A stretch of 64,000 nucleotides of DNA. Source: Bacteroidota bacterium. Its GTDB lineage: Bacteria > Bacteroidota > Ignavibacteria > UBA10030. The translations under genes and the position numbers were made by a program. Position 1 is the first letter of the stretch. The number at the start of each line of letters is the position of its first letter. Shown here piece after piece: positions 27,435 through 64,000 of this stretch. The notes beneath the pieces were generated by a model. The model had not been told where the DNA came from, did no database searches, and saw only the letters and a program-made list of their open reading frames with translations. The DNA is taken from positions 1 to 64,000 of the forward strand of contig JAOAFT010000012.1 of NCBI GenBank assembly GCA_026416125.1. The letters are read 5' to 3'.

Positions 27435-27463
27435 TTGACAAATTCTTTTTTATATACTATAAT
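27435..27463 (+). promoter_or_regulatory. Consensus sigma70-type promoter
   Basis: TTGACA (27435-27440) and TATAAT (27458-27463) are separated by exactly 17 bp, a perfect housekeeping promoter. The expected RNA start is near 27470. It lies in the 346-bp gap between bshB1 and phoB and points toward the short hairpin RNA below. Confidence 0.85.
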
Positions 27464-27469
27464 TATGTA

Positions 27470-27547
27470 CCCACACCTACGGTTTGGTAGTGGCCGTAGG
27501 TTAAATCCCCCGAACCCCACGGTTTTCCCCTGGCCGTGGGGTTTTTT
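27470..27547 (+). ncRNA. Candidate small RNA or phoB leader with two similar hairpins
   Basis: Transcription from the perfect promoter upstream would make an RNA of about 78 nt. Hairpin 1 has arms CCTACGG (27476-27482) and CCGTAGG (27494-27500). Hairpin 2 has arms CCCCACGG (27515-27522) and CCGTGGGG (27534-27541), followed by six Ts. Both loops are 11 nt, start with TTT and end with TGG, so the two hairpins look like variants of one design. No open frame is visible. It could be an independent sRNA, or a leader whose terminator attenuates phoB, which starts about 100 nt downstream. No known RNA family was recognised. Confidence 0.6.
27515..27547 (+). terminator. Intrinsic terminator ending the short RNA before phoB
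   Basis: An 8-bp GC-rich perfect stem (27515-27522 with 27534-27541) is followed directly by TTTTTT at 27542-27547. This is a textbook terminator placed between a strong promoter and phoB. Confidence 0.88.
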
Positions 27548-27574: not shown

Positions 27575-27648
27575 CTGTTTCCAGTGTCATTTTTAATGTT
27601 TTTTTCTAACTTTAGGACAGGAAGTATCAATAATGTGAAAAGTGGGTT

Positions 27649-28341
27649 ATGACAAAGAAAATTTTAGTTGTTGATGATGAAGTTGATATTACGAAACTAT
27701 TAAAGTACAATCTTGAAAAAGAAGGATTTCAAGTTATTGTTGCCTATGATGGAAAAACAGCACTCACAAAAGTTCAAGAGAATCCCGATCTCATCGTTCT
27801 CGATGTTATGATGCCTGGAATGGATGGATTTGAAGTTCTTCGAGAATTAAAGAGTAAAGAAGCCACTTCCTCTATCCCAGTACTGTTTTTAACTGCTAAA
27901 GGAACCGAGCTCGATGAAGTGCTTGGGCTTGAACTTGGTGCAGATGATTATATTGTCAAACCGATTAGTCCTCGGAAATTAGTTGCGCGAATAAAAGCGA
28001 TGTTTCGCCGAGCAGAGGTTAGCGAGAGAAAAGTTGTACATGATGATGTATATCAGTTTCATAATATTGTTATTAATGTACCAAATTACATGGTTAAGAT
28101 TGATGGAAAGGAAGTTTTCTTCCCGAAAAAAGAATTTGAACTGTTAGCATACTTGGCACGTTATCCAAATCGAGTGATTACCCGTGAGGAAATACTAGAT
28201 AACATTTGGGGGAAGAATGTATATGTTGTTGATCGGACGATCGATGTCCACATACGCAAAATACGAGGGAAGCTTGGGAAGTATGGATCGATGATAGAAA
28301 CGGTAAAGGGGGTAGGCTATAGGTTCAAAGTTGATGAATGA
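27649..28341 (+). CDS. phoB: Phosphate regulon response regulator, PhoB/PhoP type
   Basis: This is an OmpR-family transcription regulator of 230 residues. The receiver domain (about 1-120) has the acidic pair in VVDDE, phospho-acceptor Asp52 in IVLDVMMPG, Thr in FLTAKG and Lys in IVKPISP. The C-terminal winged helix (about 130-230) has PKKEFELLAYLA, REEILDNIWG, RTIDVHIRKIRGKLG and TVKGVGYRF. The stop overlaps the phoR start as ATGA. With pstSCAB-phoU directly downstream on the same strand, a phosphate-starvation role is well supported. Confidence 0.93.
   Translation: MTKKILVVDDEVDITKLLKYNLEKEGFQVIVAYDGKTALTKVQENPDLIVLDVMMPGMDGFEVLRELKSKEATSSIPVLFLTAKGTELDEVLGLELGADDYIVKPISPRKLVARIKAMFRRAEVSERKVVHDDVYQFHNIVINVPNYMVKIDGKEVFFPKKEFELLAYLARYPNRVITREEILDNIWGKNVYVVDRTIDVHIRKIRGKLGKYGSMIETVKGVGYRFKVDE

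Positions 28342-63111: not shown

Positions 63112-64000
<889 letters not shown>

Follow-up and report, generated by a model that had tools for sequence, protein, structure and literature searches.

A candidate C-rich small regulatory RNA upstream of phoB in a Bacteroidota bacterium and its look-alike relatives

The Locus and Its Transcription Unit

The window, that is, the whole 64-kb stretch of DNA analyzed here (from genome G000), contains a predicted small RNA (sRNA) gene flanked by a PIG-L deacetylase gene on the opposite strand and by phoB-phoR downstream; a 16S gene occupies 63112-64000. The closest named relatives of its PhoB (56–59% identical) are from MAGs of Bacteroidota that carry labels such as Ignavibacteria and Kapabacteria, which suggests that the organism may be placed there. 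The features discussed below are as follows.

27435..27463, + strand: sRNA promoter, TTGACA-17-TATAAT (12 of 12 consensus matches, spacer 17)
27469..27547, + strand: sRNA of approximately 79 nt, its start placed from the -10 element and its end from the T run
27469..27474, + strand: unpaired leader ACCCAC (CCCA invariant in five copies)
27475..27501, + strand: hairpin 1 of ten pairs, with a loop whose letters vary
27502..27511, + strand: unpaired linker UAAAUCCCCC (little or no variation in AAUCCCCCG among the five copies)
27512..27547, + strand: hairpin 2 and T run, forming an intrinsic terminator (C-rich loop UUCCCCU at 27525-27531)
27607..27613, + strand: candidate phoB -10 element TAACTTT, separate from the sRNA promoter and behind the terminator
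27649..28341, + strand: phoB-like response regulator gene, the downstream neighbor, regarded as separate from the sRNA unit

The perfect promoter described in a first-pass annotation of this DNA was confirmed: from the start of TTGACA (27435) to the end of TATAAT (27463), all 12 consensus positions are matched, and the exact TTGACA-17-TATAAT pattern occurs once in the window compared to a mean of 0.01 expected from dinucleotide shuffles. The intrinsic terminator that had been placed shortly downstream was also found, in that hairpin 2 is followed by a T run ending at 27547. When 464 kb of G000 was scanned for a TTGAC-type promoter followed by an intrinsic terminator within approximately 110 nt, this unit was the sole match. 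The same scan in approximately 417 kb of G003, a genome from the same family but a different genus, gave four C-rich RNAs and one other site, the scanned stretches including those already known to hold the RNAs. The annotation had further reported no reading frame, and indeed no conserved frame is present. The sole frame, of 35 codons, begins at 27465, upstream of the expected transcript start, and the indels among the copies described below are not multiples of three; a small-protein reading was rejected on both grounds. As far as can be read from the DNA, the sRNA is a stand-alone gene with its own promoter and terminator.

Predicted Structure of the RNA

Folding of the 96 nt that begin at 27465 gave two hairpins with an energy of -37.1 kcal/mol (z -3.5), and none of 200 shuffles was as low. 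By folding of the window RNA, the leader, the linker, and the loops of the RNA have a high unpaired probability. The first-pass annotation had assigned the same plan to both hairpins and had taken the repeated loop design as a sign of repeated binding of one partner, such as a protein or mRNA. The flanks TTT and TGG are common to both loops, but the loops themselves are unlike (UUUGGUAGUGG versus UUUUCCCCUGG, with loop letters TTTGGTAGTGG and TTTTCCCCTGG), and the likeness of the stems is missing in relatives, the two stems of the closest relative being dissimilar (CCTACCG versus GCCCGTGG). The suggestion of repeated binding was abandoned because the letters on which it was based vary between copies. 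The repeat that is kept consists of short C runs in the leader, the linker, and the terminator loop. The conserved feature, with pairing judged by folding, is unpaired C-rich sequence, comprising the linker AUCCCCCG, the leader, and the terminator loop, and AAUCCCCCG within the linker is the most likely candidate for a seed.

Copies in a Related Genus

A BLAST search of the sRNA region against 60 relatives revealed four copies in G003, located on C110, C84, C101, and C73. The C110 copy lies directly upstream of a phoB gene whose product is 70% identical to that of the window, and the other three are at unlinked places not adjacent to phoB. Phage-type genes (DUF968, an N6-methylase, and a helicase-like gene) are found near the C84 copy and a tyrosine recombinase near the C73 copy, while the copies on C110 and C101 have no phage-type neighbors. 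The idea that the C73 element had inserted into the sRNA gene was rejected, no repeat of the RNA 3′ end being present in the stretch examined. Each of the four G003 copies has its own promoter, composed of TTGACAAA(T/C) and a TAnnTT-type -10 element at the same distance as in the window, with TAGCTTTG serving as the -10 in two of them; the TAnnTT type is the usual form in Bacteroidota. The sequence upstream of the -35 element is not conserved, favoring a constitutive promoter.

The five RNAs have in common the leader CCCA, the linker AATCCCCCG, and both stems; loop 1 is variable, and loop 2 contains a run of four Cs in four copies and CC in the C73 copy. Seven of the 20 pairs covary (changed on both sides), a number reached in none of 500 shuffles. 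The suggestion of a new small RNA in the first-pass annotation is supported by the conserved copies with covarying stems and their own promoters and terminators, as well as by the lack of any Rfam match at cut-off. A covariance-model search in related genomes had been proposed there as a check. When 98 genomes of the order and 391 of the class were searched with the covariance model R1, strong matches were restricted to G000 and G003; we refer to these RNAs as family 1. R1 matches in f10 genomes were considered as possible members and rejected, being actually another C-rich terminator RNA. Around positions 1501-1560 of L168, L169, and L170, a short C-rich terminator RNA (TACTCCCACCAACA...AACCCCTAAATCCCGACTTTCCCCCGAGTCGGGA) is common to three f10 genomes.

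A Second Family and Other C-Rich RNAs

Weak R1 matches revealed a second RNA in the arrangement lolC-lolD-RNA-DUF3098-tRNA, in which we take the protein genes to be lolC, lolD, and DUF3098 based on their translated sequences. Of the 98 genomes of the order, 62 have matches to R2, the model of this family 2; most have a single copy, and G006 has six. An example is L112:1501-1583 (-). Its helices are backed by 42 distinct sequences and nine pairs changed on both sides, in an alignment that was fitted to the model. Family 2 occupies a conserved chromosomal place and has the same plan as family 1, with C runs in both hairpin loops.

Each model recovers RNAs of the other family: 11 of the 23 weak R1 matches fall at family-2 genes, and R2, which was trained without the four family-1 copies of G003, recovers them at 23–26 bits, among the best in 104 kb, although the window RNA scores just 16.7 bits. 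The lolD-DUF3098 locus of G000 contains a degraded family-2 RNA whose terminator loop bears ATCCCCCG, the linker motif of family 1, so that the 8-mer AUCCCCCG is shared by the family-1 linker and this loop; at the family-2 locus of G003, the C run has been lost. A third kind of C-rich RNA, with the linker AGCCTCCC, was found at L025:7384-7462 (-) and L130:1501-1584 (+), and its copy on C73 of G003 has the promoter TTGACAAAT-17-TAAATTTG.

The best explanation of these sequence relationships is that the window RNA belongs to a group of look-alike C-rich sRNAs of this order, including family 1 (one copy in G000 and four in G003) and family 2, which is present in most of its genomes. A bolder scenario, which we hold as tentative and rather doubtful, is that both families branched from a single ancestral superfamily of C-rich sRNAs, which acts as a main Hfq-free riboregulator of the order, and that family 1 took over and multiplied, partly on mobile elements, where the lolD-DUF3098 copy decayed (G000 and G003).

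Proposed Mode of Action and Alternatives

A trans-acting sRNA is suggested by the independence of the transcription unit, the presence of several paralogues, the conservation of unpaired C stretches, and the consensus form of the promoters. We consider it somewhat probable that the RNA acts by Hfq-independent base pairing, its C stretches pairing with G-rich segments in a restricted number of mRNAs. An independent and probably constitutive gene would produce an RNA of approximately 79 nt with two hairpins, whose unpaired C-rich parts (the leader CCCA, the linker AAUCCCCCG, and the terminator loop CCCC) would pair, most likely in trans and without Hfq, with G-rich segments of few mRNAs, and translation would then be blocked or decay changed. 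The transcription unit, the conserved structure, the copies, and the unpaired C-rich parts come directly from the sequences, from which we infer expression and its conditions, trans action, pairing, and targets.

Hfq (PF17209) was detected in none of the 32 genomes of the family (G000 and 31 others) by a search that was positive in five control genomes. No general excess of pairing was observed between the C-rich segments and the start regions of 354 genes from stretches of the G000 genome and 299 genes in G003; any targets must therefore be few. The ribosome sites are AAGGAG-like, and a general anti-Shine-Dalgarno action was rejected on the basis of these sites and the lack of pairing excess. 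One candidate target is a lipoprotein-like gene (G000:C76:55442) that has CGGGGGAU at its probable ribosome site; one such CGGGGGAT site is statistically unremarkable, and the remaining genomic CGGGGGAT sites are mostly within coding sequence. Counted against its reverse, the pattern GGGGGA-N(1-12)-ATG shows no excess in G000 (89 to 77). Throughout the G003 genome, the same pattern is four times commoner than its reverse (169 to 41).

An unlikely alternative is that the RNA is mainly a sponge, in which the C-rich loop and linker would sequester either an RNA-binding protein or a G-rich RNA. The presence of several short C runs in each molecule and of several copies in a genome, together with the lack of general complementarity to start regions, would agree with such a role. 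Against it, no partner is known, Hfq was not found in the 32 genomes, and the number and place of the C runs differ between the families. CsrB-type RNAs titrate CsrA via a different motif, and a direct reading of the alignment shows that the CsrA-type GGA loop motif is absent from the conserved parts.

It is improbable that the RNA is a cargo of phages or integrative elements, captured at the position before phoB and of use to the element instead of its host cell. Two of the four G003 copies (C84 and C73) do have phage-type genes nearby; however, such neighbors are lacking around the phoB-linked and C101 copies, family 2 has a conserved chromosomal position, and no true copy was found in IMG/VR or in phage or plasmid collections. 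A rough estimate puts the 37 matches of the linker motif in IMG/VR close to the number expected by chance, and the top-scoring one (25.5 bits) is a different sequence, and longer patterns in IMG/VR and searches of phage and plasmid collections gave no match; spread by phages or plasmids was rejected accordingly.

In both G000 and G003, the sRNA lies approximately 100 nt upstream of phoB and is transcribed in its direction, and the first-pass annotation had offered a phoB attenuator as one possibility. Upstream of phoB in other relatives, R1 has no match, and in nine of 14 other relatives examined in the same family a tmRNA gene is located directly upstream of phoB (L178, L179, L180, L181, L182, L187, L190, L195, and L197); no tmRNA was detected by ARAGORN in the 64-kb window. 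At the place matching the candidate phoB -10 of the window, G003 has TATATTT. Because of the tmRNA genes, the lack of R1 matches elsewhere, and the candidate phoB -10, the phoB neighborhood is no evidence for a role in phosphate control, and no link of the sRNA to phosphate was found. Nor is the linkage to phoB conserved as would be expected of an attenuator: three of the four G003 copies are elsewhere. That the sRNA is a phoB leader or attenuator, with terminator read-through controlling phoB, is thus highly improbable, since a candidate phoB -10 behind the terminator speaks against read-through co-transcription and no alternative antiterminator fold was seen, and both hairpins are very stable.

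Comparison with Known Small RNAs

Small-RNA control in these uncultured Bacteroidota relatives appears to be little studied, and a limited literature search found nothing specific. The window RNA and its relatives look like an unlisted family of small regulatory RNAs, as neither family 1 nor family 2 reaches any Rfam cut-off. Two sRNA families that are not listed in Rfam but possess covariation and C-rich motifs are concrete objects for testing sRNA control by C-rich sequences without Hfq.

The trans-acting, Hfq-free base pairing proposed for the window RNA would have precedent, since LhrC and B11 show it elsewhere. The best named sRNA match of family 2 is ar14 of alphaproteobacteria (RF02344; up to 35.8 bits, below the cut-off of 58.8 bits), which likewise has C-rich loops; the window RNA gave no ar14 match. 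B11, a 6C-type sRNA of actinobacteria including mycobacteria, has C-rich hairpin loops, including that of the terminator, and these base-pair with G tracts close to ribosome sites (PMC12395582). Family 2, with C runs in both loops, is nearer to this plan, whereas family 1 has its main C run in the linker and a C-rich loop in the terminator alone, loop 1 not being C-rich. Neither the window RNA (E up to 1) nor family 2 (E up to 0.5) has a match to Rfam 6C.

LhrC of Listeria is encoded by multiple copies, each with its own promoter, and pairs independently of Hfq through a C-rich motif that is single-stranded between two stem-loops and in the terminator loop (PMC4132741). The window RNA differs in size (79 versus 111–114 nt), in phylum, and in its motif, CCCCC(G), which is not of the CUCCC...UUUU form, and its score against LhrC (RF00616; 22.4 bits, E 0.41) is far under the gathering cut-off of 110 bits. 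On the other hand, G003 has four copies with their own promoters, although G000 has one, and the C-rich motif is located in the unpaired linker and terminator loop of the window RNA. Compared to the UCCC motif in three unpaired places of LhrC, the window RNA has UCCC in the linker and terminator loop and ACCC in the leader, all unpaired by folding. With the two families, it can be asked whether such bacteria regulate genes through C-rich sRNAs without Hfq, as do Listeria and mycobacteria.
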